From Rhizophagus irregularis (lineage: Eukaryota > Glomeromycota > Glomeromycetes > Glomerales > Glomeraceae), in contig NC_089435.1 in NCBI RefSeq assembly GCF_026210795.1, forward strand, positions 4,092,001-4,156,000: 64,000 nt of DNA. The letters are read 5' to 3'. Made by a program: the position numbers and the translations under genes. Positions 10,021-56,892 of this stretch are shown here, one piece after another. The notes beneath the pieces are model-generated. The model worked only from the letters and a program-made list of their open reading frames with translations. It had not been told where the DNA came from and searched no databases. The first letter of the stretch is position 1, and every line of letters begins with the position of its first letter.

Positions 10021-10810
10021 TATATTACTGAGCATTTTCAAAAAAAAATGTAAAATCTTAACATTCTGACGAAAATGAAACATTTTGACCAAAAAAACGT
10101 AAAATTTGCTGAAAATATGCAACATTTGACAGAAAATATAGAATTTTCATAAAAAATACACCATTTGCAAGAAAATCGGAATATTTGACAAAATTTGAAT
10201 TTAATTGACAATGTTATAACAATTTTATGAAATGTTGTTACAATGATATCACATTGAAGATAAAATGTGGCATTTTCATAAAAATGCACCATTTGCAAGA
10301 AAATTGGAACATTTGACAAAAAAAAAGCAAAATTTGATTTTAATTGACAATGTTATAACAATTTTATTAAATGTTATTACATTTGAGGTAAAATGTGAAA
10401 TTTTCATAAAAATGCACCATTTGCAAGAAAATTGGAACATTTAACAAAAAAAAAGCAAAATTTGATTTTAATGACAATGTTATAACAATGTTACGAAATG
10501 TTACAAAAATGTTACATTTGAGATATAATGTAGCATTTTCTCAAAATTTCATAAGATTTGCTAAATCGGACAATGTTGTAACAATGCTATTCCAAAAAAT
10601 TGCTCAGCGTAATGCAGCATTTTCCACAATTTCCCACCATTTTCCAGGAAAATGGGGAATTTGCATTTTTTGAATTTTGGACAATGGCGCCCCTTCGACC
10701 TGTGTTTGCATGGGACTTTTTTACTGCACATGGATTTTTTCGTAAAAAATGTTGTCTAAGATTAGAAGGATATGGGAATTCCTTCCTACAATGCTGACAG
10801 GTATGATCAG

Positions 10811-12788
10811 CTAGTTTTTTTTTATAGGCTGGCTATCTACTGCAAAAACATTACGTTGTGCCTTATGTACAGAGAGAGGAATTGAGACAACCTGTCCATT
10901 TACATTTGCTTTGAACTCACCCTTTACTACAGGTTCCCAACCTGCACGATACTGCCACTGTGTACCAAGTATTAGCAATGATTTGTCCTTACCATTTCGA
11001 TCCTTCTCGGTAGGTATAACAGAGAATTCGTCTGATATAGTGACTGTATTTGTACCTTCACCGATAGTTATGGGAATTTCATTGATAGTGCCAAGAGTTT
11101 TGGTTGATCCAGCTACACCATTAAGTGCATGTATATTCTTTTGATCTATTTTGAGACCTAGATGCTTAGCTACATTTTTAGAGATTACTGAAGAGTCAGA
11201 CCCTGTATCGATCATAGCATAGGGTATGCATACATTTTTGATTTTACAGGAAATGGTCGCTACATCATTGGGATCATCTAACTGGAGAAAGTTGATTTCT
11301 AAGGGTCTTGGCCAGTATAGGTTTTTCTGCTGATAGGCACGTATTGCATGGTTCAGTGTTTTGTCTTCTTTCTGTTCTACTTCAGATGGTACATCTGCAG
11401 GAGGAGTTGGTAATAGTGAAGTTGCTGTATTTACAGCATGAGCTAGAGGAGATAAAATGTCTTGCATATTTGCTGAAAGAACATCCCAGAGTTTCTTTCT
11501 TTCACTAACTGGATAGTCACTAACAAAATGGTTTAAAAGCGGGTCTTTCAGATTCTTATATGCTTGATTGGTATAAGCATTAATCTGTAGGAGGATTTCT
11601 TTAGGACATTGTGCTGCTAGTGAAGCAATTATAGACTTCAGTGCTGCATGAAAGACTTCATCAGTTTTCTTGAGAATAGGTTCTCTTTTAGATTTGGAAG
11701 TACGGGATTTCTTCCCTTTGTTTTTTACTGAAACTCCACGTTGACGAGTTTTTTTTACACTAAAGCAATTCTGAGGTTCATCCTCCTCCTCCTCTTCTTC
11801 CTTCAGTTAACTCTTCCTCAGTTTCTTCATCAGTTTACATCGCTTTCGATTCTTCGTAGTCAACTATGTGAGTATTGTTAACTTTCTTAGCAGCACTCGT
11901 GGAGCAGGCTTGTTCTTGGAATGACCTGTTCTACCGCAGTTTGAGCAATGACGTTTAGGAGAAGATTTGGTTGTCTTTGTCACCTTTTAACCTGACCAGT
12001 TCCAAAGTGATCTTTTCTTAGATGTTGTGTTTGTCCACCTAACTTTCTGGTAAGATCACTCTCAATGAAAGTATGTATTGCTACGGGATTTGTTATGTCG
12101 CCAGTATAGCCAAGACGTCCTGCTATATCTGCAAGCTTTTCTAATGCAGTTCTATTCTGTGGTTGTTCTACTATAGTGGTTGGATTTTTTATTTTTCGCT
12201 TCATCTACCATTTATTACGCAACTCATTAAAGAAAGCATCAAGATCGCGGAGCGGCAACTACGCTGCGTTTAAAAGCGTCGAGGCAAATGATTATATAGA
12301 TAAGGTAAAATTTCGGCGTATACTTGTCCTTTGTCTAATGATCGAATTCTTTTTGCATATGTATCTGGTGTATCTATAGGAGAAAATGATTCGTTCATGA
12401 GTGCTATTATAGCACCTTGATTTGTTCCAACCGTCGCATCTCATATTTTCCTTGCAGCCAGTTTAGAAAGCTCTGGTTCTGTATTAATAGCAGCATTGCC
12501 ATTATATGGATTATTTACTGGAACAGGGAATAAATCTACCAGACATTTTATTTTTCATGACATTGCTCCTCATAGCGACATTAAAACCAGCAAAAGCTAG
12601 TGGACGAGCCATCTGCATTGACAGCTCAAGCTTTTGGTAATAAGAGTCTGGCGAACTCTTGTCCATCGTAAAATGGTGCTTGTGCAAGACCTGGTGATAT
12701 AGTATGCATGACATCTTGTATTGTAGCCATGTTTGGAGGATTGTTTTGTAACGCTAATATTTGTTGTTGTAAATTTAAAATATTTTGG
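10811..12788 (-). pseudogene. Gag / zinc knuckle / aspartic protease part of the outer polyprotein (broken)
   Basis: On the minus strand, several frames in order match a Ty3-like Gag followed by a retropepsin. The aspartic protease active site DTGSDSS is at about 11189-11209, in an open frame ending at 10811. Upstream is a degenerate zinc knuckle, HCSNCGRTGH (near 11955), whose last Cys is reached only after a frame change. The Gag part (about 12200-12780) is in at least three frames with stops. The order and several stretches match the inner Polinton's polyprotein at 50757-53675 (for example LQQQILALQNNPP versus LNQQILALQNNPP). Known of the families: such proteases process Gag. Inferred: this was one ORF continuous with the coiled-coil part upstream, now inactive. 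Confidence 0.75.
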
Positions 12789-12802
12789 GCTTGTGCTTGC
12801 AC

Positions 12803-13783
12803 TTAGGTCTGTGAAATCCTATATTGTCTTTGCCAGTTTTGTGCCTGACGTATACAACCTGCATGCCTTCTTCTCCAACGTTCTGTATCAGCATTATAGC
12901 GTAACATCAGCCTATGTGCATTCCTTCTATGCTCAGCTATCTGATTCTGTTGGTTTGTTATCTGATTCTGTTGGTTTGCCAGTTGTGCATCTTTACGTCT
13001 ATTCAGAAAACGTATACCTAGATTGGCTATTTGTATTCCTGCAATACGTGCTTGATTCTGTTGTGCAACAGTTTCCCAGTGTCTACGAGCATTTCTCTCA
13101 TATGTAAAATTATCACGTACTCTTATTAAGTCTTGATTAAGAGCATTTGTACGATCTAAAGATTCTCCAAGTAATGTCTGCAATCCTTCTATCTGATTTA
13201 GTTGGTCTACACCAATTTCTTGCATTAAAGCAGCTTGACGAATAATTTCATCAAGACTTTGAGTGGTAGCATTAAAGACATCATCTATGTCTTGTGGAAT
13301 TGGAATCCTATTCCGATCAAAAAATAGTCGAATCTCAGATACACAATCTGCAACTGCCCGTCGGCGGTCTAGTATTCTTAGAATAGGATTGAATAATTCA
13401 TTATCTTCATCCATTTCTATCTTTCCTTTACATAAAGATAATTCTTGAATGCGTTTTTTGAGTTTATCTACTATGTATTCAAGCTGAATGATACGTTCAT
13501 CCTGGGTAACAAGTGCCTCTTCCTTTAACTCTAAGTGATCTCGATACTTTCCAAGTTCAACTAAAGTGGACTGACACTCTGCTTTTATCTGATCGATCTC
13601 ATCCTCACGTGAAACAAGATTTTTTTCAAGATAGAAGATATATCGTTCACATGCCTCTATCTCCTTTGTGAGTTTACGGATTTTCTCCTTATTGGAAATA
13701 TTATTTGTTTCCTCTTGAACTAGCTGTTTGCGCAAATCAAAGTTGCTATTTAACAAATCAAGATATGCCTGTTCAACTCCCAT
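12803..13783 (-). CDS. N-terminal coiled-coil part of the outer polyprotein (326 aa)
   Basis: The ATG at 13783 overlaps the start of the divergent integrase gene (ATG 13765 on the plus strand) by 19 bp. Residues about 15-120 are a long coiled coil. The C-terminal part matches the inner homologue: RRNAHRLMLRYNADTE here versus RRNAHRLLQHYNTETE at about 51230. A TAA ends it near 12803, but the same frame continues past the stop into VQAQAQNILNLQQQILALQ, which is where the Gag-like part begins. The stop is therefore probably secondary and this is the front of a longer Gag polyprotein. Function inferred: assembly or oligomerisation domain of a Gag-like particle protein. Confidence 0.7.
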   Translation of the reverse strand: MGVEQAYLDLLNSNFDLRKQLVQEETNNISNKEKIRKLTKEIEACERYIFYLEKNLVSREDEIDQIKAECQSTLVELGKYRDHLELKEEALVTQDERIIQLEYIVDKLKKRIQELSLCKGKIEMDEDNELFNPILRILDRRRAVADCVSEIRLFFDRNRIPIPQDIDDVFNATTQSLDEIIRQAALMQEIGVDQLNQIEGLQTLLGESLDRTNALNQDLIRVRDNFTYERNARRHWETVAQQNQARIAGIQIANLGIRFLNRRKDAQLANQQNQITNQQNQIAEHRRNAHRLMLRYNADTERWRRRHAGCIRQAQNWQRQYRISQT

Positions 13784-14362
13784 TGATTCCTATTATTCCA
13801 ATAGATTCTGATGAAGCACGAAATGTAGAGGTGACTTCGACTTTATGCAGAATATTTTATCAACCATCTGGATATCAGAGGACTGCCAAAAAATTGTATC
13901 AGACATCATAAAATGCTGGATATGATTTCACTTTGGATGAAGTGGAGGATTGGCTTGAAAGACAGGCAGTACATCAAGTCCACAAACCTCGTCCCCGAAT
14001 TATCCCTCGTGTAAGTTTTAGTTCTATACAAGTTCCCAATGAAGTTCATCAAGCTGACATTTTGTATATGCCATATGACAAGGTTGGACATGTGACTTAT
14101 CTTTTCTGTCTCAATATAATTGATATAGCATCGAGGTATAAAGAAAGTGTCCCTATAGGTTCAACCAGTGTTAAAGATCAACAGGGAATCCTAACTTCTC
14201 ATACTATTGCTCGGGCTTTTGAAAAGGTATATGATGATACAACATGTCTGCTCACTTGGCCAAAATTATTGATTACAGATAGGGGTTCAGAGTTTAAAGG
14301 TGAGTGTGAAAAGCTGATGACTTCCCATGGTGTAAAGATTCAGAAGGCCAAGTCTAAGCGTA
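13765..14362 (+). pseudogene. Outer integrase, 5' part (interrupted)
   Basis: Retroviral/Polinton-type integrase. It starts at ATG 13765, has an in-frame TAA at 13909-13911, then reads through the catalytic core. The first Asp is in HQADILYMPYD and the second in LLITDRGSEF. The frame ends at 14356-14362, where the inner Polinton begins. The missing catalytic Glu (IVERYNRTL) lies 42 kb away at 56425-56460, in the same frame. It is divergent from and overlapping with the coiled-coil/Gag gene, an arrangement repeated inside the inner Polinton. The element inserted within the DDE core, so this integrase cannot be functional. Confidence 0.85.
14356..14362. repeat. Target-site duplication of inner Polinton, left
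   Basis: AAGCGT(A) precedes the left terminus. The same bases follow the right terminus at 56410-56416. Polintons characteristically make 6-bp duplications; here 6 or 7 bp match, depending on where the terminal A is assigned. Confidence 0.85.
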
Positions 14363-14522
14363 AGTAGTATGAAAACCCCAATTCTGGCTCACCTACTTAT
14401 CTCATAATCTAAACCGTTTATTAATATTTTCACCTACTTATATACTACATATTTTATAACCTAAATCACCTTTTTTATATTTTTACCTACTTATATCCTA
14501 CTTATTTCATAATCTAAATCAT

Positions 14523-15995: not shown

Positions 15996-16207
15996 TCATT
16001 TATTAATATTTTCACCTACTTATATCCTACTTATTTCATAATCTAAATCATTTATTAATATTTTCACCTACTTACCCCAACCGAACAAGAAATAGGATTT
16101 CAAAGCCAACGGAGCTAAAAAAGGTAAAGAAATATTAACCCATCCAGGAAACCAGCCATGGAATCAATAGAGCGGAATAGCAAGGCAAGCAATTTCCCTT
16201 ATACCGA

Positions 16208-16230
16208 GAAAAAATGTAATTGAATAAAAG
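16208..16230 (+). promoter_or_regulatory. Shared 23-bp motif upstream of the left F-box gene
   Basis: Contains AAAAAATGTAATTGAATAAA, ending 39 bp before the ATG at 16270. Identical or near-identical copies precede the polymerase gene (34087-34109), the 227-aa gene (56018-56040, inverted) and, with three changes, the F-box/LRR gene (54423-54445, inverted). Position just upstream of start codons suggests a core promoter element. Confidence 0.65.
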
Positions 16231-16269
16231 GTAGGTACCAAGTAACTATACAGATAAATAGTACATAAC

Positions 16270-16830
16270 ATGGTATATACCGCAGAAAAGTTAGCAACAA
16301 TCTTTGGCTGCACAGTCTCTGATCTTATGGCTATCAATAGGGAGATTCTAAAAAGCCACCAAACCCCGTACGCAGTATCAGTAATCCCCGAACTTGTGGG
16401 CCATATCCTGGAATACATTCCAAGTAGAAATTTCGGGACACATCTTCTAGAAGTCAGCCCAATCTGGAGAGCCGAAGCTGAACGAGTACTCTGGAAGCGG
16501 TGCATGCAAGCTGAGGAGGCATACGAACAGGTGGCAAATATATGTAAGAAAGCTGAAAGGGCTTTCTGGCGAGATTGTGCAGATGGTGGTATAAATTTTG
16601 ATAAACTTGACGATGAATCAACTAAAATTAGTCAAGAAAAGTATACCAGATTCGAAGAAATGGTAGTCATAGAACAAGCTATTCTCCATTGTAGTTTTAT
16701 ATCGAAAGAAACTAATAAGGGAGAATACATCCGAATGATGTGCAATTTTGAGTTATTTAAGGATGGGGATACTCCTGATGAGGATGCGTTCGGTAACTCG
16801 GATGATGATGACTCAGATGACGAGGAATAG
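16270..16830 (+). CDS. F-box-like protein with acidic tail (186 aa)
   Basis: First gene inside the left TIR. Residues about 38-77 (SVIPELVGHILEYIPSRNFG onward to RVLWKRC) fit the F-box pattern: Pro-Glu-Leu then spaced hydrophobics, ending in a Trp-containing helix. The rest is helical and the C-terminal 20 residues are almost all Asp/Glu/Ser. F-box proteins recruit substrates to SCF ubiquitin ligases through Skp1. A selfish element might use one to adjust host protein turnover, but that is inference. The ORF is intact, unlike most genes here. It is preceded by the shared 23-bp motif. Confidence 0.6.
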   Translation: MVYTAEKLATIFGCTVSDLMAINREILKSHQTPYAVSVIPELVGHILEYIPSRNFGTHLLEVSPIWRAEAERVLWKRCMQAEEAYEQVANICKKAERAFWRDCADGGINFDKLDDESTKISQEKYTRFEEMVVIEQAILHCSFISKETNKGEYIRMMCNFELFKDGDTPDEDAFGNSDDDDSDDEE

Positions 16831-16919
16831 ATTATATCCAGATAAATTTTAGAAGGTGATATTAACCCGCCTTCATCTTTTTTTTATCCTTCATCAGGAA
16901 TTTAAACACGGCATAATGT

Positions 16920-18164: not shown

Positions 18165-18167
18165 ATT

Positions 18168-34109: not shown

Positions 34110-34131
34110 AGGGATCTAAAAAGTATACAAG

Positions 34132-35454
34132 ATGTCAACACATCAAGCAAGAAGTGCCCAACACAGACAAGTCATCCGATCAGTTTTAGCTGAACTCAAG
34201 CAGGTACCTGTCAAATCCATCCTATATCCCCGCTCAAATGCAAAATTGCAGGAATATGAGGATGAGATCCGCCAAATCCGTGAAGCACAAGCGGCGGTAA
34301 CCAATGAAGAGATAACCCGCATGATGCAAATTGACCCAGACCCACATTATGAGGTAGTCTTTGAACGTCGTGATCAGGTACGTATAGGAAAAGAGTTAAC
34401 AGACTCAAACTTTACGGCTGATATTGCTATAGGAACACCTGGAGAGCATGACTATGCTTCATTTCTTACAGCACACAGTCAAACAATCCAGAATATTCTT
34501 CGGGATGAAAGAAATCGATTGGGATCAATAAAAGTAAGAATTGGAATATTTGCCACAATAAGACGTTTAGATTCTTACCTTGAGACATTATTTGGATATG
34601 GTAACTTTAGTGAAGATGATGGAGTAGAGTATATCTACAGATATAACATACCATTTAAAACTCGCAATATGCCAATCCTACCATCAACAGATATTAATGG
34701 TACATTTAACTTTGCATTAGCAAGAATCATGCAGAAAGTAGAAGACTATGTAAATTACGGATCAGGTTGGGAATTCTATCGTGTAGAAAAAATATTTATA
34801 GAAATCTCGCAATTCCAACCACCCACAGGAGCAGGACATATACCACTCCCAAAAGATCTTGCCACGAAAAAGGGAGTAGTAAATCCAGCTAATGATGATG
34901 ACAAATGCTTCCAGTGGGCAATCCTAGCAGCATTACATCCAGTAGAAAAGAACGCAGAAAGAATTTCCAAGTATAAGGAGTATGTAAATGAGTTAAACTT
35001 TAAAGGTATCAAATTTCCAGTACAAGCTGATGAGGTAATTCTAAGAAGATTTGAGCGACAGAACCCAACTATTGCCCTCTGCATCTGTGAATGGCGTGAC
35101 CACCGCCTATGCCCAATATATGTTACCGATAGGGATGATGCAGAGGGCCGTAAAATAATAGATTTAGTACTTATCAGTAACGGGGAAAAGCAGCACTATT
35201 GCTGGATTAAGAATATGAGCCGTTTAGTAAATAAACGTACAAAAGATGGACATGCAACATTTGTCTGCCGATGGTGTATCTCCCACTTCACACATCAACA
35301 AGAAATCCATGACAAACATGTAGCAATATGTCGAGGATTAAAGAAAACCCCACAAGCAGACCGAATGCCATCAGTAAAGAAAGGAAATGATATATATGAA
35401 TTCAAGAACTGGAAACGCCGCATGCAAGTAGGACCCCGAATAATACTAATATAA
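34132..35454 (+). pseudogene. Polinton DNA polymerase B, N-terminal part (interrupted)
   Basis: Starts ATG 34132 after the shared motif. Residues about 255-350 carry the block typical of Polinton pPolB N-termini: DDKCFQWAILAALHPVEKN, LNFKGIKFPV, then KQHYCWIKNMSRLV. Then follows a Cys/His finger CRWCISHF..HDKHVAIC. The native frame ends at the P-like element (35430); the last residues to 35454 are element-derived. The rest of the gene continues at 40468. The segment that normally holds the Exo I motif (YADFE) is missing at the junction. Known role: protein-primed replication of the element. Confidence 0.88.
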
Positions 35455-40467: not shown

Positions 40468-42861
40468 GGCTGAAGCAATTCGCAATGAATTCAGAAACCC
40501 AATGGAAATGATGCCATTAACAACCCAAGAGTAAGTAAGTTATGATAATGCAATAAACTGCTGGATATGTCGCAACCCCTTAGATGGAAATAAAGTAAGA
40601 GACCACTGCCATATTACAGGAAGGTATCGAGGTGCAGCACATAGAGGATGTAATCTTGACTTATCCATAAAACCTCGTGAAATGCATATCCCAGTAATCT
40701 TTCACAATTTATCAGGATATGATGGACACATAATTATGCAAGGAATTGGTGCAATGGAATGTGAGGATGATATTGATCCTATCCCTTATAACATGGAAAA
40801 GTATATGGCATTCAAGTTAGGTTCCCTCCGATTTATAGACAGCCTACAATTCATGAAATCAAGTCTCGACAAATTAGCATCCAACCTAGGTGCAGAAAAA
40901 TGTAGAGCACAAGAATGTAGTAATCCACAACACTTATGGCGAATTGATGCAGGTAGATGCTTTACACATCCCGAAAACTTTAAGATAACACGAAGTCAAA
41001 TACCACCTGAATTACTCGAGATTTATCTTAAGAAAGGTGTCTACCCGTATGAATATATGGATGACTGGAAAAAGTTCGAGAAAACTAGTTTACCACCTAA
41101 AGGAGCATTCTATAGCAAACTTAATGAAACCCACATTAGTGATAAAGAATATGAATATGCACAGTATGTATGGGAAAAAGCAGGATGTAAAACAATGCAA
41201 GATTATCATGACATTTATCTCAAAACTGACGTCCTTCTACTAGCCGATATATTTCAGAATTTCCGAGAAATGGCTTTGAAAAAATATGGGTTAGATCCTC
41301 TCTGGTACTATTCAACACCAGGCTTCGCATGGGATGCACTATTCTTCATGACAGGGCAAAGATTGGATCTTATAACTGACCAGGATATGTATATGATGGT
41401 AGAACAAGGATTACGTGGTGGAATCTCTATGGTAAGTAAACGATATGCTCGTGCAAATAATCCAGGTATGGGAGAAGGTAAATGGACCGCAGATAAGCCC
41501 AAGTCATCTATTCTATACTTAGACGCAAATAACCTATATGGATGGGCCATGTTGCAATACTTACCTACAGGTAACTTCCACTGGATAAAGGAGGAAAACG
41601 AGTTATCTAACATTCAAAGGCAAATAGAAAGTAATGAAATACCAGATGATTCTTCTGAGGGATATATCCTTAAAGTCAAACTGGAGTACCCTCAAGCCCT
41701 CCATTCACAACACACAGATTACCCCCTTGCACCAGAACGAATGAAGGTTAAGAAGGAATGGCTTAGTAAAAAGCAGCAGGAAATAATAGCACGTTCAGGA
41801 CAACGATATACACCCACAGATAAGCTCATCCCTAACCTATTTGATAAGGATGAATATGTAGTTCATTATAGAAATCTCCAGTATTATGTTAGCCAGGGCT
41901 TAGTAATCAAGAAGGTCTATGAAGCTATAAAATTCGAGCAGGCTCCATAGATGAAACCATATATAGAATTTAACACCGCCGAACGTGCTAAGGCTAAGAA
42001 TGATTTTGAGAAGGACTTCTATAAACTCATGAATAATAGTGTATTTGGTAAAACTATGGAAAATCTCAGAAAACGTGTACGTGTCTCAGTAGTACAACCC
42101 CAAACCCATCCCAAGAAATATAAAAAGCTTACCTCAGATCCTGCATTCAAGGGTCGTAAAATATTCTCAGAAAATCTTGTTGCAATCCACTGACGAAAAG
42201 TGGAGGTAATGCTTAACCGTCCAACATATGTGGGTATGAGTGTGCTTGACCTCTCGAAGTTCTGTATGTATCAATTCTACTATGATACTCTTAAAGTACG
42301 ATATGGTGAAAAAATCCAGTTATGTTATACAGACACAGACTCACTTCTTGTACAAATCCAAACTGAGGATATCAATGCAGACCTCATAGATATGGCAGAC
42401 CAATTTGACTTCAGTGATTATCCTAAAGATCATCCCTGTACGAAAAGCATTAGGTGATAAGACTGACATAAATATGAAAATCCCAGGGAAATTTAAGGAT
42501 GAATGTAATGGAGCAGTTATAGCAGAATTTATTGGCCTCCGTCCCAAAATGTACTCCATTCTCAAGGTAGGGGATGAGAGCTAATCCAAATCCAAAACAT
42601 GGTATCCGTAAGGCTAAAGGTGTCCCCTCAAAGGTAGTTAAAAAAGAGTTCCACCATGAGCGGTATAATAAGGCACTCTTTGATCCTAAACATAATGATA
42701 CAGTCACCTTTAGAGCAATCCGATCTGATAGACATGCCATAAATGTTATAGAAATGTCGAAGGTGGGATTATCCCCTATGGATGATAAAAAATGGATTGC
42801 ACAAGATAATATCACAATGTATGCACATGGAGATTATAGGATACCACAACTTGAAAATTAA
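40468..42861 (+). pseudogene. Polinton DNA polymerase B, C-terminal part
   Basis: Continues the polymerase: CWICRNPLDGNKVRDHCHIT (endonuclease VII-like Cys/His block), Exo II FHNLSGYDGH, Exo III LKTDVLLLADIFQNF, palm motif A YLDANNLYGWAM, motif B region KNDFEKDFYKLMNNSVFGKT, and motif C YTDTDSL (Asps at 42332-42340). In-frame stops lie at 40532 (TAA), 41948 (TAG where a Trp is usual) and 42191 (TGA). Frame changes occur near 42435 and 42575. The last block (VTFRAIRSDRHAINVIEMSK) ends at 42861. The 3' end overlaps the convergent integrase by a few bases, showing the dense original layout. Clearly inactive. Confidence 0.9.
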
Positions 42862-43102
42862 TATAATATATGAGTAGGAGGCAGCATAGTATCAGATGGC
42901 ACAACTAATAATTCTTCTCGAGTAAATATTTTTTTAGGTCCATCAGATAACCTATATATAACCAGCTGCCCATCAACAACTGTGGAAGATTCAATTGTAT
43001 AAACTTTAGTAGACCATATTGGATCAGTTGCACGTCTCCTACCTTGGTAATCTGAGTTATCAAGTAAGTATCTCACAAGAGAACCAGCTGGTAAACGTAT
43101 TT
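42858..43102 (-). pseudogene. Inner integrase, 3' part
   Basis: Minus-strand frame with IRLPAGSLVRYLLDN, YQGRRRATDPIWSTKVYTI and VIYRLSDGPKKIFTREELL: the C-terminal SH3/chromo-like part of a Polinton integrase, clearly homologous to the outer copy (SVRYLLEPNDLEGGRRRAGD). It joins in frame to the segment at 49660 once the DUF7869 element is removed. Confidence 0.85.
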
Positions 43103-43339
43103 GGGGTGAGTGCTGGGAAAAGGGACCAAATCGACATTTTATACATTTTGAGATAAATGCGATTTTGTGATTTCTGACGTAAATTCCAAATATTCGGATC
43201 ACAAGACAAAAACCAGTTTATTACAAGACGAAATCCAGTTTTTATATCTGATCATTTGATGAGTTATTTATTTATACACAGTTTTAGAATAAATACTGGT
43301 AACCGCATCTTTATTTTAAAATCTGAATAAAAAAAATAT

Positions 43340-44420: not shown

Positions 44421-45172
44421 TTTTTGTTTTTGTTTATTTATTACATGTAATTTCCGTTCCCTACTAACTTTATTTCTTCTTTTATTTTATGGGTTTGGTT
44501 TTCACTTGGTCACCTGTTACTTTCGTATTTTTTTTGTTTCCACTTTGTTTTTTCCGTTCCTTTCTTTTTTTTCGTTCCCATTTCGTCTTTTTCCGTTCCC
44601 ATTTCGTCTTTTTCATTCCTTTACACTACTCTTCGTTCCTTCCATTTTTATTCCATTCCCACTTCATCTTTTTCATTCCTTTACACTACCTTTCGTTATT
44701 TTCATTTTTTTTTTCCATTCCCACTTCATCTTTTTCATTTCTTTACACTACCCTTTGTTCCTTTCATTTTTTTATTCCCCTTTACTACATTTCGTCCCCC
44801 TTCATTCTTTTCATTTTTTTTTTCATTCCCACTTGTTCTTTTTCGTTCCTTTCGTTTCTTTCACTCCCCCTTTGCTCCATTTCGTTCCTCCTTCGCTCCC
44901 CCTTCGTTTCTTTCATTCCCTTTCACTCTCCCTATTTTTTTCATTCACCCTCATTCTTTTTTCCTTTTTCATTCACTTATTCTCTTTTATTTATCGTTGC
45001 GACTCATTTTTTTTATAATTCCTATCAAAAAATTTAAAAAATTTACAGGGGATTTATATGCAAATTACGAAGTGAGAAATATTGAATTTTATTTAATAAA
45101 TTAATCATGAGTGAAATCACCCTTAGGTGATTTCACCCTGAATGCAAATTAGCAACAGTCTTAAATATCTAT
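44421..45172. repeat. CT-rich tract and 3' flank
   Basis: 44500-45000 is a TTTCGTTCCTTT / CCCACTTCATCTTTTTCATT polypyrimidine tract. The long Phe/Ser/His frames across it are composition artefacts. 45045-45172 is AT-rich and contains CACCCTTAGGTGATTTCACC, a small palindrome. Confidence 0.7.
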
Positions 45173-47499: not shown

Positions 47500-48059
47500 T
47501 AGTAAGAAGGATAAGAAGAATGAAAAAAAAAATTAATGCAAATTCTATTTATTTAAATAAAATACCTCCAAAAAAAAAGATTTATTGTATAAAAACATTA
47601 AATATACAGGATTGGTAACATAATACAACACTTAAATTGATGAGATGTCAACGCCATTAGCCATATATAGTCTTATGAAAATGATAAGATAACGATGATA
47701 ACGATAGATAACGATATATAACAAATAAATTTCCCAAAATTTGCAACATAATACCAAAAAAAGATTTTAGACTAATACAGAAATTTCATTATTTTCGTTG
47801 AAAATTCACATTACAAATTTCCCGTAGTGCAAAATACCAAAAAAATTATCATTTTTGTTAAAATAATACACTACACTGATGATAATAAGGCTAATAATGA
47901 TAATAAACCGAATTATGAATAATAATAACAAAAACCAATGTTGGCAAAATAAAACGAACTGTAAATGAAATGAAATGAAAAATAATTAGATATGAAGAAC
48001 CTAAAATATAAAGCAAAGACAAAATAAATAAAATGGAACAAATAAACGAAAAAAAAATG
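47500..48059. other. Upstream region of the DUF7869 gene
   Basis: AT-rich sequence between the array and the ATG at 47499. It contains repeated ATAATGATAA/ATAACGATA words (47690-47720, 47880-47930). Probably leader or promoter of the transposase. No ORF. Confidence 0.5.
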
Positions 48060-48870
48060 AAAATACCTTGACTGCAGAATCAAAAGAGCCGAAGAACCTA
48101 AAAAGAAAGAAAAGAAAGCATTAGAAACAAAATTAAACCGAAATGGAGGAACGAAGAAACAAAAAAATGAAATAAATACTTTGACTGCAGAATCGAAAAG
48201 AGCCGAAGAACCTAAAAAGAAAAAAAAAGAAAGCATTAGTTTAGGAACAAAAGTAAACAAAATAGAGCAACGAAGAAACAAACAAATAAAAAAAAAGAAA
48301 ATACTTTGATCGCAAACCCGAGAGAGCCGAAGAACCTAAAAAGAAAAGAAAGCATTAGAAACAAAATTAAAATGAAATGGAGAAACGAAGAAACAAACAA
48401 ACGAAAAAAATGAAAATACCTTGACTGCAGAACCGAAAAGAGCCGAAGAACCTAAAAAGAAAAAAAAGAAAGCATTAGTTTAGGAACAAAGTAAAACAAA
48501 ATAGAGCAACGAAGAAACAAACAAATGAAAAAAAAGAAAATACTTTGATCACAAATCCGAGAGAGCCGAAGAACCTAAAAAGAAAGAAAAGAAAGCATTA
48601 TTAAAACGAAATGGAGCAACGAAGAAACAAACAAATGAAAAAAAAAGGAAAATACCTTGATCACAAACTCGAGAGAGCCGAAGAACCTAAAAAAAAAGAA
48701 AAAGAAAGCATTATTAAAACGAAATTGAACAACAAAGAAATAAACAAATGAAAAAAAAGGAAAATACCTTGATCGCAAATCCGGGAGAGCCGAAGAACCT
48801 AAAATAAAAGAAAAGAAGCATTAGAATAAATAAAACGAAATGGGAAACAAGCAAATGAATATACCTTGAC
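48060..48870 (-). repeat. Exon/intron-like array, TTCTTCGGCTC type (right, minus)
   Basis: Seven units of 95-125 bp, the inverse of the left array. On the minus strand: TTTTTAG, GTTCTTCGGCTCTTTTCG, then TCTGCAGTCAAGGTATTTTC. Reads leftward toward the transposase ATG at 47499, so it could form a multi-intron 5' leader of that gene. Confidence 0.78.
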
Positions 48871-49659
48871 CCGTTGACCGCTTAGTTTAGTTTCCAGTTG
48901 GTTTCAATTATCTACTAAGGAGCAATTATCGAAGGAGCATTTATAATTAAAAATCCCAATAAAGTAGTTATGGAAAAACTCTACTATTTGGGCTTGTCAG
49001 AGGTCTTTATTGGGAGGGAGTTTTAGTGATGTTTAAAATTATTTATAGGAATTAGTAAAAGACATCGGTGGCGTTAAGCGCACTGGGAGGGGAGCGAAAC
49101 GGCATTGGCTTTATGCAGGCGCGTTTGTTAGTTTAGTTGGGCTACTTAGTCAAATAGTATCGTGCGATGTAGACATGAATACGTTAATATTTCATATAGC
49201 GTGCTCTTTATTTTTTTGCTGTGTTTATTGTTTTATCATGTATTTTAGATAGATACTTTATTTAACGTATATCGAGTCCGGTGCTTGACGTGTAAAGGTT
49301 GTATTGCGAGGCGCGAATTCCTTATTAATAAAAAAAAAAAATCGTACACTGAGTCAGTGCACAAAAACTTTTAATTGGTTGTAAAATTTGGTCCCTTTTC
49401 TCAGCACTCATAAATGTTGTAGTACTGTTTTGGAAGTGATCTGCAAAATTGATTGACATTTGCATCTCCTTATTTAAAAACAACTAAACCAGATATAGGG
49501 TAACAAAGTGTTATAAGGCCGTAGCGCAACATTTTATTATGCTAATGACCCTTCGATATTAAGTAAAAAATGTTTCTTAGATAAATCTTTATCCATTTGT
49601 AATAAAAAATAAATTTTCACTGAAATGTCAATTTGGTCCCTTTTCCCAGCACTCACCCC
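48871..49659. other. Right subterminal region with a duplicated terminus
   Basis: No gene. At 49386-49410 is a second copy of the terminal sequence (AATTTGGTCCCTTTTCTCAG then CACTCA), 0.25 kb inside the true end. This suggests a doubled or alternative right terminus. GC-richer stretch at 49060-49130 unexplained. Confidence 0.6.
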
Positions 49660-50478
49660 ATTTCTTCTGCACCTACAGGTCTATCCTTCCGAATTTTTGA
49701 AGGTAGTGCATACACTTGATCTTTCTGGATTGCCTCAACTGGAGACATACCTAGCAGACGAGTATTAGAATTATTTAGCTCATTCACAATATCAGAAAGG
49801 TTCTTAACCCAAGCAGTATTCGCACCTTCTTGTAAGGAGTTCCTTTGCATCCTGTATTTTGAAAAGTCTCTCTGCTAAAGTTCGATTATACCGTTCAACA
49901 ATAGCCTGACTCTTAGGAGTAGTACCCACCCGAATACGTACACCTTTTTCATCCATTAATCGGATAACTTCATCCTTAAATTCTGATCCCCCATCTACTT
50001 GTAAAACTCTTGGCCAAATAAGCGGGCAGTCTGCTTTACCATAAATCTTTTTAAATGCCTTAGCAACACGTGCAGAGCTGCGATCTTCTAGAGGTACTGA
50101 AGCTTTATATCGGCTAGCAACATCTACAATATTCAGACAGTATTTATACAGCTTTCTATCTACAATATCATAGGGCATATATAAGATATCTGCTTGATGA
50201 TACATATTTGGTCGAGTAATCTTATTAAAAGAAACCTGTGGAATATACTTGGGTATAGGTGAGTGTATTTGCCATATAGCCTGTTTATACAACCACTCTG
50301 TAATATCAGATATGTTAAAATCATGGCTTTCAGCTTGCACTTTAGCCCAAAGTTTTTCAGGAGTACGATAATATCCACATAGATGGTAATAGATTTGTTG
50401 AAGAATATAATTTTGTTCGATTTGTTTATTAAATGTAGGGTCTATAAAAATCTGTAGAACTGGCAATGGAAGATACAT
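49660..50478 (-). pseudogene. Inner integrase, 5' part (frameshifted)
   Basis: ATG at 50478 on the minus strand, overlapping the divergent Gag gene start (50466) by 13 bp. N-terminal zinc-binding region is weak. Core: HQADILYMPYD (first Asp), LQVDGGSEFK (second Asp) and IVERYNRTLAERLF (Glu). It loses frame near 49830-49850, after IQDAKELL, and continues in another frame (KNLSDIVNELNNSNTRLLGMSPVEAIQ, in parts) to the ATTT duplication. Known role: insertion of Polinton DNA into the host genome. Inactive through the frameshift and the 6.6-kb insertion. Confidence 0.85.
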
Positions 50479-53400
50479 CGTTAAAGACACAGATTACAAA
50501 GCTTGCACATACATTGCAATCACAAGAGCAATATATAAAATACCTGTATGGTGTAATCGAGGGTCATGAATCTGAGATAGAAGAACTTAGGCAAAAAAAT
50601 GCTGAGTTGCGTGCAAAACTTAAGAAAGCATTAGAAACAGCATCACTAAAGGAGGAAGGGCTTCAAGCATTAGAACGTCAGCTGATTGAAGTTGATACTC
50701 TAAATATTCAACTCAAAGATCGAATAAAAGAACTTACTAATAGATAACGGAAAAACATGGCAGCAATTCCTCCTGACCTTATTACAGAAATCTTAAATAA
50801 TCGGACAACTATAGCAAATAGTGTAGCTGGTATTCGTATTCACCTTGATCGTACAACTATAGCAGCACACCCTCATATAAATCATTTATTTAATACTGCA
50901 AATGATAGTCTTGATGCCATTATCCGATATGCTAACGAGTTGCGAAATATTATAGAAGATCAAGATAATATGGAGGATAGACTTGAAGGTTTGTTAGATG
51001 ATGCACATAACCGTGAAGAATATCTTAGACAAGAACTTAATAATACACGTGCTACTATACTGAGAACAAGACGTACTTATGAGGATGCATATGCAAATGA
51101 AGTGCGTCATCGCCAACATTGGGAAGTCCTTGCACAAAATACTCAGATCCAATTGGCTAACATCCAGGCTCAATTTGCTAACAGTCAAATCCAACTAGCT
51201 AATGTCCAGAGAGAACGTGATGAGAGTAGAAGAAATGCTCATAGATTATTACAGCACTATAATACTGAAACAGAGCGAAGTAGAAGGCGGGCTAATGGTA
51301 TCATTCAGCAAGCTCGAGCATGAAGAGGGCAATTTTTAAACTGTCGCAATCATGGTCAAAATTTGCAAAATCAGGTCAATAATTTGAATCAACAGATTCT
51401 AGCATTACAAAATAACCCTCCGATAATACAACAACTGATAATGGCAGGATATGCACCTAAAAAATTTAGAGGAGCATCTGGTGAAGATCCAGAACTTTGG
51501 CTTCAAGAATTCAGGCAATGGTGTGAGTCTGCTGAACTTGATCCTGCTGCTAATGCTAGAACTCGTGTTAGGATTCATGGGATCTTTGAGACTTTACTTG
51601 AAGATGATGCTAGAGATTGGTATGAAACACATATCAAAGGAAAAAATTGGGAATGTGTAAATCTTCTGGATAATACTGGTGTGGCCAATCTTGCTGCTTT
51701 TAATGCTTTGAATAATGGCGCTATACAGGCTGTAGCGGTGAATCAATTTCGTGGAGGGGCTGGTGTATTACATGGACAAGCAGCTGCAGTTAATACTATT
51801 ACTGGTGCTAATTTTATACCTGATCATACTGTATGAGATGAAGATTGGTCAATAGTCGAGGGTCGTCCTACTGATATAGCTGTTAATAATCCTAATGCTA
51901 ATAATGGAGGTACAATTGTGGTTCCTGGAATACGTATTGGACAATTAATATATCATTTTAAGCATTACTTTCCTACTATAACATCTGAAAAGTCTAAGCT
52001 TGCATTTAATGCTATTGTTCAGGGTAGTGATACTGTAAGCCGATTCTATTCTAAATTACGAAGAATGGTTAGACTTGCATATCCAACTCTTCCAGAGGTA
52101 AATCAGAATGAATTAGTACGGCAACAGTTCTTAAATGGTCTTTCCAGTGAAAATAAGTTGGATGCGCGACATATTGGTTTAGAAAATTCAGTTGCATCTA
52201 TTCTGAATAAATTGGAAGAAGTTGAGAAATACAGGACAGATATGCCACCTACTCCTATAGTTACATATCAGGGTCCAACTTTAGCAGATATTGAGAATCT
52301 TATAAATTCTAAAATTCCTATGACTACGGCTAGATCATCTGCAGTACCAGTACCATCTTCTAGTCCATTTTCAAGTCCTCAAAATGATACATCATTTCAG
52401 AGATTACTTGCTTTAGCATATAAATTAGGTCTTCCAAGAGATATCGATATAAGTAAAGTAACCCTTAGTGATCTTGAAATATTTATTGATACAGAACTTA
52501 ATAAAAATTTACCATCTGACCATATTTACCGTGGTAATCAGGTATTTGGTATAAGTTCAGGTACACGCAAACCAAAGAAATCAAAGAAATGCTCAAGTTG
52601 TGGAAAATCTGGTCATACTAAGAGTTCCTGTCCAAAATCTAAGAAGGGAAAGAGGAAAACAAATTATGCACATGACTCCTCTGATTCCTCTAACTCTTCT
52701 GATGCCTCTGACTCCTCTGATTCCTTTGATAGTGATTCAGACTCTGGACATGCCTGCTATGGATTAAAAAAAAAGCCTACAGAAAGGAAACGTGTAGATA
52801 AAAAGCCTACTGATAAGAAAAAATCACAACTTGAAAGGCAGCGTATTATCTTTGAGGTTTTTATACAACTCTTAAAGCTTCTGGTTCAATCCTTCGTTAA
52901 TGCTGTACCAAAAGAGACTGTTATATCTGCTTACAATGCTCTGAATGCTGAATTCATTAATTATAAAGAACCAGTACTCAGTCAGCTTAAAGGAGAACCC
53001 TCGATAAAAACACGTGAAAAAGTTTGGGATAATGTTAAGGACCTTTTCACATCTATCCTTCATCCTATGATTTCGGTTGTAACTAATAGTATGGCTGCAA
53101 ATTTAATCCGTAAAAATGATGATGTTATATGTAATAATGACTTATGGTCTTCTATAGCAGGTATTGGAATTGTTAATCGCAAGTCTGCTAGTGATGTAGT
53201 CACTATTAAGACCAAAGTAGTCGCACCTGAGAGTGAAAAATCTTTAGTTATTCCTACGACAATTTTCGATACTGGTTCTGATAGTTCTCCGATATCTAAC
53301 AATATTGTAAAGCGCCTAAATCTTGACGTTGATAGAAGTAATGCTCCTGACCTTAGTGGTGTTGCAACAAAATCTGATACTATTGGGACAGTATATGGTC

Positions 53401-53675
53401 TTGGTATTCTTGTATATGATGGGGAGAACTCTAAAAAAATTGAAGATGACTTCATGGTTGTTAAGAGTGATAAGGACTTTTTATTGCTAGGTGTACCTTG
53501 GATTGATCGTGCTAATGTCATTCTAGATTTCCAAAATCGGCAACTGACCATTCCTCTATCATCACGTAAAAAAATTACCATTCCAATTTCTCTACATAAA
53601 CGGAAAACTAACGTGACTTCCTTGCAGATGGATACTATCGACCTAAAAAAAATTCACTCTCTCGAGGAAGATTAA
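50466..53675 (+). pseudogene. Coiled-coil / Gag / zinc-knuckle / aspartic-protease polyprotein, three in-frame stops
   Basis: One reading frame of about 1070 codons broken only by TAA 50745, TGA 51321 and TGA 51834; no frameshift is needed. Order: coiled coil (50466-50744); second helical domain (50757-51320) with RRNAHRLLQHYNTETE; Ty3-like Gag core (51450-52230: FRGASGEDPELWLQEFRQW, DDARDWYE, FYSKLRRMVRLAYP, FLNGL); zinc knuckle CSSCGKSGHTKSSC (52590-52634); Ser/Asp-rich linker (52672-52750); retropepsin DTGSDSS (53268 on) with FLLLGVPWI. Known of the families: Gag forms particles and the protease cleaves it. The second TGA falls where a Trp would suit. The outer element has the same architecture. 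No reverse transcriptase or RNase H follows. Confidence 0.85.
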
Positions 53676-53793
53676 CCTGTCATCTATGTGGAGCAAGTTT
53701 TGACTTTCCCTCTAAGTTAAAGCGTCATCTTGCTAGGAAAAATCCATGTGTTTCCCAAACTTCTGCGGCAATGATGGGCGGTGGCGGGCAGTG
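53651..53793 (+). pseudogene. Zinc-finger fragment after the protease
   Basis: In a different frame from the protease end: LTCHLCGASFDFPSKLKRHL then ARKNPC, a C2HC-type finger of a style common in this genome, ending in TGA at about 53791-53793. No upstream start of its own, so it may be the remnant of a C-terminal extension or a separate small gene. Confidence 0.45.
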
Positions 53794-53880: not shown

Positions 53881-54393
53881 TTACATTTGCCATGTTACTC
53901 TGATTTCTAGGTCTTTACGGGTTTTTATGAGTTTTTCAATAGCATTTCTATTTTTAAAATATCGACTATATCTGATATTTAGCTTTTGAAGGTTTGGTAA
54001 TATATGCAGGATTTCACTTAGCAAATCTCTAACGTCACCTTTTCCACCATAGTATTGATAATCTATTATGCTAAGTTCCTGGATATTGGGGCAAGCTTGT
54101 AGCATTTTTACAATACAGATAGGCCATAAAAATACTCCATCCATATTAAGCTTTCTGATATATTTTCCACATACTGTCCCTGGTTTTGTGAGATGTTTGT
54201 ACATTTGGAACTCCTTAATATTATAGCGGTTATAAAGGTCTGTTTCACCCCATAGGAGAGAGTTTGCTACTACAGCCCATTTTCGACACACTAATGCATA
54301 ATTGCAAAGATAATGCCAACGGGAGTAAGTACCTTCATATGAAGTTTTGAATATCTTTTCTAAAAGTTTGAAAGGTAAGCTATTGTTTGTCAT
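53881..54393 (-). CDS. F-box/LRR-like protein (170 aa)
   Basis: Intact minus-strand ORF. Residues about 5-48 resemble an F-box (LPFKLLEKIFKTSY, then LVCRKWAVVANSLLW). Residues about 90-165 have leucine-rich repeats (MLQACPNIQELSIIDYQY, LPNLQKLNIRYS). Rhizophagus has very large F-box/LRR families, so this may be a captured host gene or a long-standing element gene. A variant of the shared 23-bp motif at 54423-54445 favours the second view. Substrate unknown. Confidence 0.7.
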   Translation of the reverse strand: MTNNSLPFKLLEKIFKTSYEGTYSRWHYLCNYALVCRKWAVVANSLLWGETDLYNRYNIKEFQMYKHLTKPGTVCGKYIRKLNMDGVFLWPICIVKMLQACPNIQELSIIDYQYYGGKGDVRDLLSEILHILPNLQKLNIRYSRYFKNRNAIEKLIKTRKDLEIRVTWQM

Positions 54394-54422
54394 GGTATCT
54401 CATATGAGATATTGATGAAGAA

Positions 54423-54445: not shown

Positions 54446-54497
54446 TTAGGATAAAATAATTTGAACATTTCTTTTCTATCAATAGAAAAAACCAGAC

Positions 54498-55289
54498 ATG
54501 CTTACTTTTAGTGAACTTACTCCATCTCTTACTGTTACTGAATTTAAGATCAATGTTGAAGGGCTTGATTACACCGTGCTTGGTCATAAACTTGAACCTA
54601 CTAAGGATGTTATTGCCATTAATAGCAACTTTATTCATAAAGCTTTTGAGGGTTATGAACAGTACTTGTCTAAACCAAAAGGTGAGAGGCGATGCAGACG
54701 AAGTACACCTGACAATCCATTAAATAGACGGCGACGTACAGGGGATGGTAGCACTTTTAATGCATGCATTGAGTTTGTTATCATCTTAGCTGATACTGTA
54801 CATACTATTCGTTATTTTCCTAAATCTGGTAGTATACAAGTTTTCGGGTCTTTTGATCCTGTTGCTATCTTCTTACGTTACCTTTCTGAATGTTCCCTAC
54901 CTGAATTTTCTTCTGTAGAACTTGTGGGTGAAAATAAGGCTCTCCTGCGCAATTATAAATTTGTGATTAATATTGGAGGTGATAAGTTTATTAATCTTTC
55001 TACCTTAGCATATGCTTTAGAATCTATAGATGGTATTCGTGAGATTCTTCCCTTTCCGATAAAGTATATTAAGAATGATGCAGGTGATATTCATTCTAAA
55101 ATTGCTATAATCTTTACTTCAAAGATTCGGGTACATATCTGGCCTAAATCTGGTAAGGTTAATATATTTGGCACTAAGACTGAATTGGATGCTGATATGG
55201 TTTATAAGTTCTTACAGAAGTTGTTTTCTAATCCATATGATTTTGAAGATTTTATTTGTGATGCACCTATTCCAGATTGCGAGAGGTAA
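54498..55289 (+). CDS. Two-repeat protein resembling a TATA-binding-protein fold (263 aa)
   Basis: Intact ORF. Two internal repeats each carry a strand-turn-strand motif: YFPKSGSIQVFG (residues 106-117) and WPKSGKVNIFG (215-225), each preceded by a hydrophobic strand (EFVIILADTVHTI; KIAIIFTSKIRVHI) and followed by a helix (FLRYLSE; MVYKFLQKLF). This twofold layout and the [F/W]xxSGxhxhFG motif recall TATA-binding proteins and their viral relatives, which bind promoter DNA. Arg-rich linker at 64-80. If right, it would be a transcription factor for the element's own promoters. This is inference from pattern only; no sequence search was possible. Confidence 0.5.
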   Translation: MLTFSELTPSLTVTEFKINVEGLDYTVLGHKLEPTKDVIAINSNFIHKAFEGYEQYLSKPKGERRCRRSTPDNPLNRRRRTGDGSTFNACIEFVIILADTVHTIRYFPKSGSIQVFGSFDPVAIFLRYLSECSLPEFSSVELVGENKALLRNYKFVINIGGDKFINLSTLAYALESIDGIREILPFPIKYIKNDAGDIHSKIAIIFTSKIRVHIWPKSGKVNIFGTKTELDADMVYKFLQKLFSNPYDFEDFICDAPIPDCER

Positions 55290-55309: not shown

Positions 55310-55993
55310 CTAGAAATCCTCTATTTGTAAAATCCAGCAATCGCATTCATGACTTCTTGTTGGCATAAGACATTCGTCACATAGAGTTATAGCCAACTCA
55401 TTTTTTAGCCTATCCAGCTGACTCTCGGTGGTTGGTGCAAGATTTTGGTAGTATTCATTGAATTCATTCTGCTCTTCTTCATTTATGTCTTCATCTATAT
55501 CTTCATCTGTGTCTTCATCCATATCTTCATCTCCTTTTATATGATAGATGCTGAATTCATTTCTATATTCATCATTAGGATTTGTGAATATTCTTTGTAT
55601 ATTGTAATCTATAATGTTGAATGTTGTAGGTTTCTTTTTTGATAATATTTCTACTAAGTCTAATAATGCATATGCTAATTCTTTATCCTCTGAGAAGTTC
55701 TTAATGATATCTGAAAATCTTTTATATATTGCCATCTCATCTGGTAGAATAGAATATCTTATTCGTGATAAAAGTGATGGATGTATCCATATATCATCAC
55801 CTTCTAACATCTCATCAAATATTTCTACTAGCTCTTCTAATCCAGATACTAACATACTTTCTTTGCTAAATTTGGAATCTAAAGCTTTTAAATATGCTAT
55901 ATCTAAATACCACATTATTTCCTTTACCCATTCTTTTATGTTGAGTTCAAACTGGCCTAGTATACGTCTTAGTAATGGTCTGTATTGTGACAT
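55310..55993 (-). CDS. Hypothetical 227-aa acidic protein next to the right TIR
   Basis: Intact minus-strand ORF, the last gene before the right TIR. Helical N-terminal two thirds (LDIAYLKALDSKFSKESML, LEELVEIFDEML), then an acidic DEDMDEDTDEDIDEDINEEE stretch, then a Cys/His-rich C-terminus (CDECLMPTRSHECDCW) that could bind zinc. No family recognised. The shared 23-bp motif precedes it by 24 bp, so it likely shares control with pPolB and the left F-box gene. Confidence 0.65.
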   Translation of the reverse strand: MSQYRPLLRRILGQFELNIKEWVKEIMWYLDIAYLKALDSKFSKESMLVSGLEELVEIFDEMLEGDDIWIHPSLLSRIRYSILPDEMAIYKRFSDIIKNFSEDKELAYALLDLVEILSKKKPTTFNIIDYNIQRIFTNPNDEYRNEFSIYHIKGDEDMDEDTDEDIDEDINEEEQNEFNEYYQNLAPTTESQLDRLKNELAITLCDECLMPTRSHECDCWILQIEDF

Positions 55994-56017
55994 CTTGTAA
56001 GTCTTTTATATGTGAAT

Positions 56018-56040
56018 CTTTTATTCAATTACATTTTTTC
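56018..56040 (-). promoter_or_regulatory. Shared 23-bp motif upstream of the 227-aa gene
   Basis: Minus-strand copy identical to 16208-16230. It forms the inner border of the right TIR and lies 24 bp before the ATG at 55993. Confidence 0.65.
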
Positions 56041-56409
56041 TCGGTATAAGGGTAATTGCTTGCCTTGCTATTCCGCTTTATTGACTCCATGGCTGGTTTC
56101 CTGGATGGGTTAATATTTCCTTACCTTTTTTGGCTCCGTTGGCTTTGAAATCCTATTTCTTGTTCGGTTGAGGGTAAGTAGGTGAAAATATTAATAAATG
56201 ATTTAGATTATGAAATAAGTAGGATATAAGTAAATGAAAATATTAATAAATGATTTAGATTATGAAATAAGTAGGATATAAGTAGGTAAAAATATAAAAA
56301 AGGTGATTTAGGTTATAAAATATGTAGTATATAAGTAGGTGAAAATATTAATAAACGGTTTAGATTATGAGATAAGTAGGTGAGCCAGAATTGGGGTTTT
56401 CATACTACT
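56018..56409. repeat. Right TIR of the Polinton
   Basis: 392 bp matching the inverse of the left TIR without insertion, ending GGTTTTCATACTACT. It shows three tandem copies of ATGATTTAGATTATGAAATA / AGTAGGATATAAGTAGGT. Confidence 0.9.
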
Positions 56410-56892
56410 AAGCGTACTGTTGGCATTGTGGAGCGATATAACCGTACCTTAGTTGAGAAACTATTTCCCTCTCAAGATGCATCTGACTTACTAACTTTAG
56501 GTAAAACAAGATCTCGAGTCTGGGTAAAAAACTTACCTATTGCTGTAGAAAGTATAAATAACTCAGTGACCCAACAACTTGGTATATCTCCTGCTATAGC
56601 TATAAAAAAATCACGAGTGTCTTCCAGATCTTCTTATCCTCGTGATGGACCTGTTGGGTATGAAGAAGAGAAACTACCACCTGATATAAGTGTAAGGTAC
56701 TTACTTGAACCAAATGATCTGGAAGGTGGAAGACGTCGAGCAGGAGATATGAATTGGTCACCTAAGATTTATCATATCCATATGTCTTTAACACAGAAAA
56801 ATCAACCAGTTTTGTACTGGCTTATTGATGATGATGGTAAAGAATCAGAGAGATCCTTTGTGAGGGGAAGAACTTTTGGTTATACCAGATGA
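56410..56892 (+). pseudogene. Outer integrase, 3' part
   Basis: Begins with the repeated AAGCGTA (56410-56416) and continues in the frame left at 14362. Catalytic Glu in VGIVERYNRTLVEKLF, then SRVWVKNLPIAVESINNS, then the C-terminal domain VRYLLEPNDLEGGRRRAGD and PVLYWLIDDDGK. No stop within this part. TGA at 56890. Confidence 0.85.

Follow-up and report, generated by a model that had tools for sequence, protein, structure and literature searches.

A Gag–protease gene of retroviral type as a standing part of Polintons in Rhizophagus irregularis

The root-symbiont fungus Rhizophagus irregularis harbours, within the 64,000 nucleotides analysed here (the window: contig NC_089435.1, positions 4,092,001 to 4,156,000, from which all plain coordinates below are counted), a Polinton copy of 42 kb. 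Besides a protein-primed-type DNA polymerase (pPolB) and an integrase it contains a Gag–protease gene (50466..53675, plus strand), and there is hardly any doubt that this gene belongs to the architecture of the Polinton. The ends of the element are 14363 and 56409, both flanked by the target duplication AAGCGTA (14356..14362 and 56410..56416). Its terminal inverted repeats (TIRs) match over 160 bp at 100% and over 236 bp at 96.6% identity: the outer part of the left TIR (14363..14522, plus), which is followed by an insertion, equals 56409-56250 reversed, the inner part (15996..16230, plus) corresponds to 56253-56018 reversed, and the right TIR covers 56018..56409 (minus). A 33-mer of this TIR recurs at 58 places of the genome. 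The pPolB gene consists of an N-terminal part (34120..35451, plus), joined to the polymerase without break in the complete copy L031, and a C-terminal part with broken frames (40535..42858, plus; PF03175, E 1e-12). The integrase on the minus strand is represented by its N-terminal part with the core (49656..50493; rve, E 2.6e-8; frames 49656-49874 and 49807-50493) and by a C-terminal part (42861..43217) that corresponds to the last stretch of the L031 integrase (357 aa) and is severed by a nested DUF7869 transposon. Integrase and Gag stand head-to-head; judged by eye their open frames share 46 bases at the 5' ends, and an overlap of 13 bases would result for genes starting at the Gag ATG (50466) and at the first integrase ATG (50478, minus). 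That the element is a Polinton, as the sequence-only reading that first pointed to this locus had claimed, follows from its polymerase, integrase, TIRs and target duplication.

The frame 50454-53675 (plus) translates into a single protein apart from three in-frame stops (50745-50747, 51321-51323 and 51834-51836) and comprises a coiled coil, a capsid region (CA) with a Retrotrans_gag-like core, a CCHC zinc knuckle and a protease with the motif DTGS. The earlier claim that core, knuckle and protease share one frame holds, with the correction that 51363-53675 contains one stop. As sole evidence the Gag piece of the window was rejected because its Pfam E-values (0.019-0.05) are weak and all below curated cut-offs. 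Altogether 40 related proteins were found, 22 of them named R. irregularis; Retrotrans_gag and gag-asp_proteas were each matched by 16 of 24 relatives at E≤0.1 (best 2.9e-4 and 9e-4, respectively). Open relatives of about 1000 aa show a coiled coil, the Gag-like core, CCHC, a Ser-rich stretch, a helical stretch and the DTGS protease. None of the 40 proteins carries a precomputed Pfam domain, and hence none carries a reverse transcriptase (RT). In a fold search with CA all 50 among the matches listed were retroviral CA, Arc or PEG10, and further folds may exist beyond this list. A sequence search of solved structures with the Gag profile gave four weak matches (best E 0.26), all to knuckle or CA regions of Gag or Arc, and a PHROGs search of ten proteins returned nothing for Gag. 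Scans of viral and genome contigs with Gag, and of viral contigs with integrase and pPolB, yielded no relatives, so that beyond this assembly the relatives are known as proteins only, without genome context.

The genome searched was the window's own assembly (G000; 146.7 Mb, 32 contigs), and since the searches score best candidates only, the counts are lower bounds. A Gag protein as query gave 81 matches, merged into 46 places. An integrase lies head-to-head within 15 kb at 42 and within 3 kb at 40 of these (0.17 expected by chance), and pPolB within 25 kb at 39. When a second, more distant Gag was added to the search, the number of places rose to 83, of which 67 have an integrase within 10 kb (59 head-to-head, eight on the same strand) and 16 have none. 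As a control, among the PF03732 matches listed (best 150 of 306 candidates) not one overlaps this Gag; an integrase within 3 kb is found at 57 of the 83 Gag places versus none of those 150 matches. The TIR pattern has 58 genome matches versus none for the reversed control. The resulting 22 TIR pairs, all of family A, enclose a Gag match in 21 cases, an integrase in 21 and pPolB in 20, and the pair without Gag match (L037) carries a truncated Gag. Where the repeats are 11-14 kb apart all three genes are present in 15 of 15 pairs. This supports the linkage of Gag within the same TIRs that was proposed by the sequence-only reading, and the layout is retained across families whose Gags are only 30-40% identical. 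Many Gag copies contain stops or frameshifts. The TIR arms measure about 380-450 bp and are 98.7-99.5% identical in three complete copies; target duplications, read in six elements, comprise 6 bp in four and 7 bp in two (the window and L037). Intact relatives had been named as the place where a separate element with long terminal repeats (LTRs) would become visible, and three complete elements have no direct repeats of at least 60 bp outside their TIRs; neither are there LTRs around the Gag of the window. Near two Polinton ends (G000:C3:4565924 and C9:1643535) Gags of the PF03732 type occur at a distance of no more than about 160 bp outside, and these Polintons may have been inserted in or near LTR elements.

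The gene order of complete 12-kb copies is a 152-codon open reading frame (ORF), pPolB, integrase, Gag–protease, an F-box gene, a gene for a protein with predicted TATA-binding protein (TBP) fold and a 231-codon ORF. In the copy L031/L032 (C29:2998311-3010416) the first ORF has 152, the integrase 357 (rve, E 2.3e-9), Gag–protease 1075, the F-box protein 178 and the last ORFs 267 and 231 codons, while pPolB is divided into two open frames; in other copies it is open over 1302 codons. PF03175 was obtained with pieces of the polymerase of complete copies (E 7.8e-13 and 1.4e-17) and of family B (2.5e-10 and 8.6e-10); the whole frames of 1081 and 1190 aa gave no match, but a piece of the former did (the 7.8e-13 just mentioned). 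The counterparts in the window are a 190-codon ORF without family (16258..16827, plus; 149-152 codons in the 12-kb copies), the F-box protein (53884..54399, minus; F-box-like, E 2.5e-5, and 1.2e-6 in L032), the TBP-fold protein (54486..55286, plus; by structure model) and a 231-codon ORF, again without family (55313..56005, minus). The model of the 267-aa protein (pLDDT 87.5) matches TBP structures with a best E of 3.5e-7; its first ten matches reach TM values of 0.44-0.51 of the query, and every one of the 42 rows at E≤0.001 is a TBP or an initiation complex, two bearing just the title DNA-binding protein. It has 69 relatives. Judged from this model the element probably encodes its own transcription factor, which may serve as its own promoter factor. 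Pairs of Gag and TBP-fold proteins also occur on contigs of equal size elsewhere (P0024/P0049, 12,523 bp; P0035/P0064, 67,248 bp), and OCT59_030060 and OCT59_030058 are close neighbours by tag, which is suggestive of linkage of both genes in other assemblies.

According to the accessible part of one survey (PMC4028283), a double jelly-roll major capsid protein (MCP) with minor capsid protein (mCP) is not found in every Polinton, whereas a packaging ATPase of the A32/FtsK type occurs in 83% and a cysteine protease of the adenovirus/Ulp1 type in 74%. Among the sense ORFs of the complete copy there is no jelly-roll capsid family, and no MCP family is listed for the ORFs scanned. PF21738 and PF16903 had no genome match, but no positive control matched either. 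The 267-aa protein is, by its predicted TBP-like fold, unlikely to be a hidden jelly roll; the ORFs of about 150 and 231 codons have no assigned family. No Ulp1/adenovirus-type cysteine protease is present in the ORFs of the complete copy (the genome was not searched for it), nor was an envelope or other entry gene recognised among them. PF04665 (A32) has 88 genome places, yet it falls inside only one of the 22 family-A TIR pairs, a pair of 27 kb. The sequence-only reading saw none of the usual capsid set; in the wider group part of this set persists, as distant integrase–Gag loci keep an A32/FtsK-type ATPase. Its statement that Gag is unaccompanied by RT or RNase H stands: neither family is listed for the ORFs scanned in the window and the complete copies, apart from a sub-threshold RT_RNaseH match (E 0.065) that falls on the coiled coil of a second, older Gag copy in the window.

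Selection was evaluated as the pooled pairwise ratio of nonsynonymous to synonymous differences (pN/pS) among family-A copies without stops, the values being uncorrected and the pairs sharing history. It amounts to 0.10 in the protease (PR; 18 copies), 0.25 in the C-terminal domain of CA (CA-CTD; 16 kept), 0.50 in its N-terminal domain (CA-NTD; 20) and 0.69 in the coil (4). L016 was left out of the CA-CTD count because it is misaligned; with it, and over a longer stretch, the value is 0.55. For the Gag of family C we obtained 0.13 (L043/L044), and two shorter pairs gave 0.21 and 0.28; the near-identical pairs of family B (4 copies) range from 0.20 to 1.07. Gag–protease is an integral, constrained gene of these elements.

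Between Gag and protease lies a run of adenines, A9 in the window (52766..52774, plus). In 30 distinct family-A elements (L025 and L030 counted as one) it is A9, i.e. in frame, in 19, A10 in nine and A8 in two, and the broken second copy of the window has A8 and continues in frame. In family B (L040, L041, L045 and L046) the run is A10 and the Gag frame ends within 11 codons; in family C (the close copies L042-L044, and L050) A9 is followed by G-TGA and the frame ends within four codons. Thus the Gag frame closes after the run at all eight family-B and -C loci. From there the protease is complete in the -1 frame at three of the eight (L044, L045 and L046); this frame closes after 22-42 codons at four (L040, L041, L042 and L043) and runs to the locus end at one (L050). 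Five proteins from metagenomes or without a name (P0031, which has 104 members, P0032, P0033, P0036 and P0040) end just past the same KKK. No stimulatory RNA structure was detected at the junction in six sequences. Retroviruses arrange gag and pro for frameshifting in this same way, and slippage itself presumably takes place. A second run (A8, 53645..53652, plus) precedes the end of the protease frame of the window, and 3' of it a C2H2 zinc finger follows in the -1 frame (53678..53749, plus). The same combination is seen in 29 of 30 family-A rows (not de-duplicated), while in family B the finger is in -1 in three of five rows and in +1 in two. In the window the pattern of an A-run before the protease end with a C2H2 finger behind it in -1 occurs twice, at 53645-53749 and 10590-10832, in two families.

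Next to the integrase, family-C loci encode an ATPase of the A32 type (Pox_A32, E 7.6e-11 in L050 and 2e-7 in L043), and Pox_A32 is also found beside more distant integrases (E 1e-10 in L049, 9.7e-6 in L048). At 11 loci A32, integrase and Gag follow one constant order, none of them with a pPolB match within 15 kb. The polymerase of L043 and L044 belongs instead to PF00136 (E 1.7e-11 and 4.3e-43). The best solved relative of the L044 polymerase is 8ywg, a 1206-aa 'DNA polymerase' (E 4.9e-177), which we take to be the asfarvirus enzyme. This B-family DNA polymerase, an asfarvirus-like replication gene (L044:1-2163, L043:8475-9899), adjoins integrase, Gag and A32-type ATPase. An Asfarviridae-type polymerase has been reported in R. 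irregularis, and the accessible text does not mention a place beside integrase and Gag (PMC5294986). The protease frame of family C has DPGA in place of DTGS, with a match to Asp_protease at no better than E 0.021 in L043 and nothing in L044. Finally, at 50 of the 88 A32 places there is no integrase and no Gag within 15 kb, many of these ATPases lying in frames of 400-411 codons. A32 thus also occurs outside these elements, and the outlying places may represent a further multicopy element or a family of host genes.

The window contains a second, older Polinton. Its Gag–protease with C2H2 finger is a broken copy (10590..13789, minus; zf-C2H2, E 2.4e-4) whose match to Asp_protease_2 (E 5.7e-7) is above the curated cut-off; the Gag–protease proper extends from 13789 to 10814, and two of its pieces share 26% and 35% identity with P0002. 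Head-to-head with this Gag stands the first part of an integrase (13672..14362, plus; rve, E 1.4e-7, just under the cut-off), and the alignment resumes in the remainder at 56410..56889 (plus; without Pfam family) exactly where the first part stops. As these halves, both on the plus strand, abut the left and right flanks of the 42-kb Polinton, the latter was inserted in the integrase gene of the older one. Since the older Polinton, too, has Gag head-to-head with integrase, two anciently diverged copies of one layout are present in a single window. Judged by eye, a gene at 581-1018 resembles L050:5055-5687 (beside A32) in its first part, and a pPolB 43% identical lies just upstream of the window (G000:C7:4089798-4091150); both probably represent yet another element.

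The younger Polinton has itself received insertions. Inverted repeats at 43.3-44.1 and 48.0-48.9 kb were considered as Polinton ends and rejected, for they flank the separate DUF7869 transposon (43341-48870; E 1.5e-17), which has inverted arrays of subterminal repeats and split the integrase gene. A Plavaka-type transposase fragment is nested at 23102-23584 (E 5.4e-15), and a 51-bp minisatellite extends over 16861-18167. Minus-strand ORFs at 35669-39833, which break pPolB, show a sub-threshold P-element-like match only (E 0.012) and are probably another transposon.

What does the Gag do in these elements? By analogy with its function elsewhere the most economical role would be that of a shell. 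We consider it probable that the element makes use of a particle built from Gag, and the chances that it packs the DNA of the element appear evenly balanced. On the whole the evidence leans towards Gag–protease as a standing Polinton part that likely supplies a DNA-packing particle in place of the jelly-roll set, and it is in this sense that we infer self-packaging. In such a cycle pPolB would copy the linear DNA from protein-primed ends, and Gag, by its coiled coil, helical CA and CCHC, would build a shell around this DNA or its nucleoprotein. Slippage at the A-run would set the dose of Gag–protease, the aspartic protease would mature the shell, and the integrase would insert the DNA, leaving the target duplication; where deeper relatives encode an A32-type ATPase, this may be the pump that drives the DNA into the shell. 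More tentatively, a radiation of fungal DNA elements might have given up the jelly-roll capsid and adopted a retroviral Gag instead, combining a protein-primed or asfarvirus-like polymerase, a frameshifted retropepsin and, in some families, an A32 motor. A packaging function is weakened by the lack of a packaging ATPase in 21 of the 22 family-A TIR pairs, by the many copies with stops or frameshifts and by the drift of A-run length in decaying copies, which may explain part of the junction pattern; the whole protease in -1 at only three of eight loci slightly lowers the odds of the wider radiation.

A captured Gag could also have a role other than packaging, either against LTR retrotransposons and viruses, as Gag-derived restriction factors act via mixed lattices, or as a carrier of RNA like Arc and PEG10. 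The abundance of LTR-type Gags in this genome (at least 150 PF03732 matches), the CA that is as Arc/PEG10-like as retroviral and the missing ATPase of family A agree with it. We regard it as unlikely all the same, because a protease and an A-run junction in three families are more readily explained by maturation of a particle than by interference, capsid genes are present in other Polintons, and an A32-type ATPase stands in one order beside integrase and Gag at 11 loci. It is less probable still that Gag acts only intracellularly, as a replication or transport body for DNA copied by pPolB (nuclear import, protection) without spread from cell to cell. LTR retrotransposons use Gag in this way, hyphae of R. 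irregularis share cytoplasm, and the ORFs of the complete copy revealed no entry or envelope gene; this is, however, a weaker form of the packaging explanation, and the present results suit both. That Gag is a functionless passenger spread by young bursts of copies would suit the damaged copies but is very improbable given the purifying selection, the linkage in divergent families and relatives 48-64% identical among proteins without species label. A nested LTR element or chance neighbour, to which Gag, CCHC and retropepsin as typical LTR-element parts might point, is refuted by the same position of Gag in all 15 complete-length copies without LTR-like repeats in three, the lack of an RT family in the ORFs scanned, the overlap of the open frames of Gag and integrase and the persistence of the layout in families with strongly diverged Gags.

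The packaging explanation would change how published observations are read. For Polintons of Glomus intraradices (R. irregularis) no MCP was found, as far as the accessible text of PMC7805220 goes, and MCP-less Polintons were read as concerted loss of capsid genes (accessible part of PMC4028283); our result offers replacement of the capsid rather than its loss for the Polintons of R. irregularis. The capsid-less state of these Polintons (PMC7805220) is taken as loss of the viral state; with a fixed Gag–protease in that position, the question 'transposon or virus?' can be put to the test, and the organism is one that can be grown. If Gag packs DNA, capsid exchange between retroelements and double-stranded DNA elements is possible, the rule that ties Gag lattices to RNA-templated replicators falls, and a Gag evolved to handle DNA would be at hand; the suggested radiation, if true, would represent a type of virus spanning two viral realms. 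A literature search covering titles and the beginnings of abstracts, with most subscription papers beyond reach, found no report of a Polinton/Maverick with Gag.

In comparison with known systems, these elements share pPolB, an rve integrase, TIRs and 6-bp target duplications with Polintons/Mavericks (Polintoviricetes) but have Gag–retropepsin where jelly-roll MCP/mCP and cysteine protease would be expected, neither of which was recognised, and family A also lacks the A32-type ATPase. With Ty3/Gypsy elements and retroviruses they have in common the CA fold of Gag, CCHC, aspartic protease, integrase and the A-run at the gag-pro junction; they differ by the protein-primed-type DNA polymerase, the TIRs and a divergent integrase in upstream position, and neither LTR nor RT was found in them. 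Arc and PEG10 resemble them in the CA-CTD fold and in a Gag without RT, whereas here Gag resides in a mobile DNA element, with protease and in many copies. Ginger transposons are likewise DNA transposons with a Gypsy-type integrase but of the cut-and-paste type, and the accessible text does not mention Gag or pPolB for them (PMC2836005). Teratorn, as described in the accessible part of PMC10175614, is also a chimera of transposon and virus; it unites a herpesvirus and a piggyBac-like transposon, whereas the present elements are DNA transposons with a capsid gene of retrovirus type.

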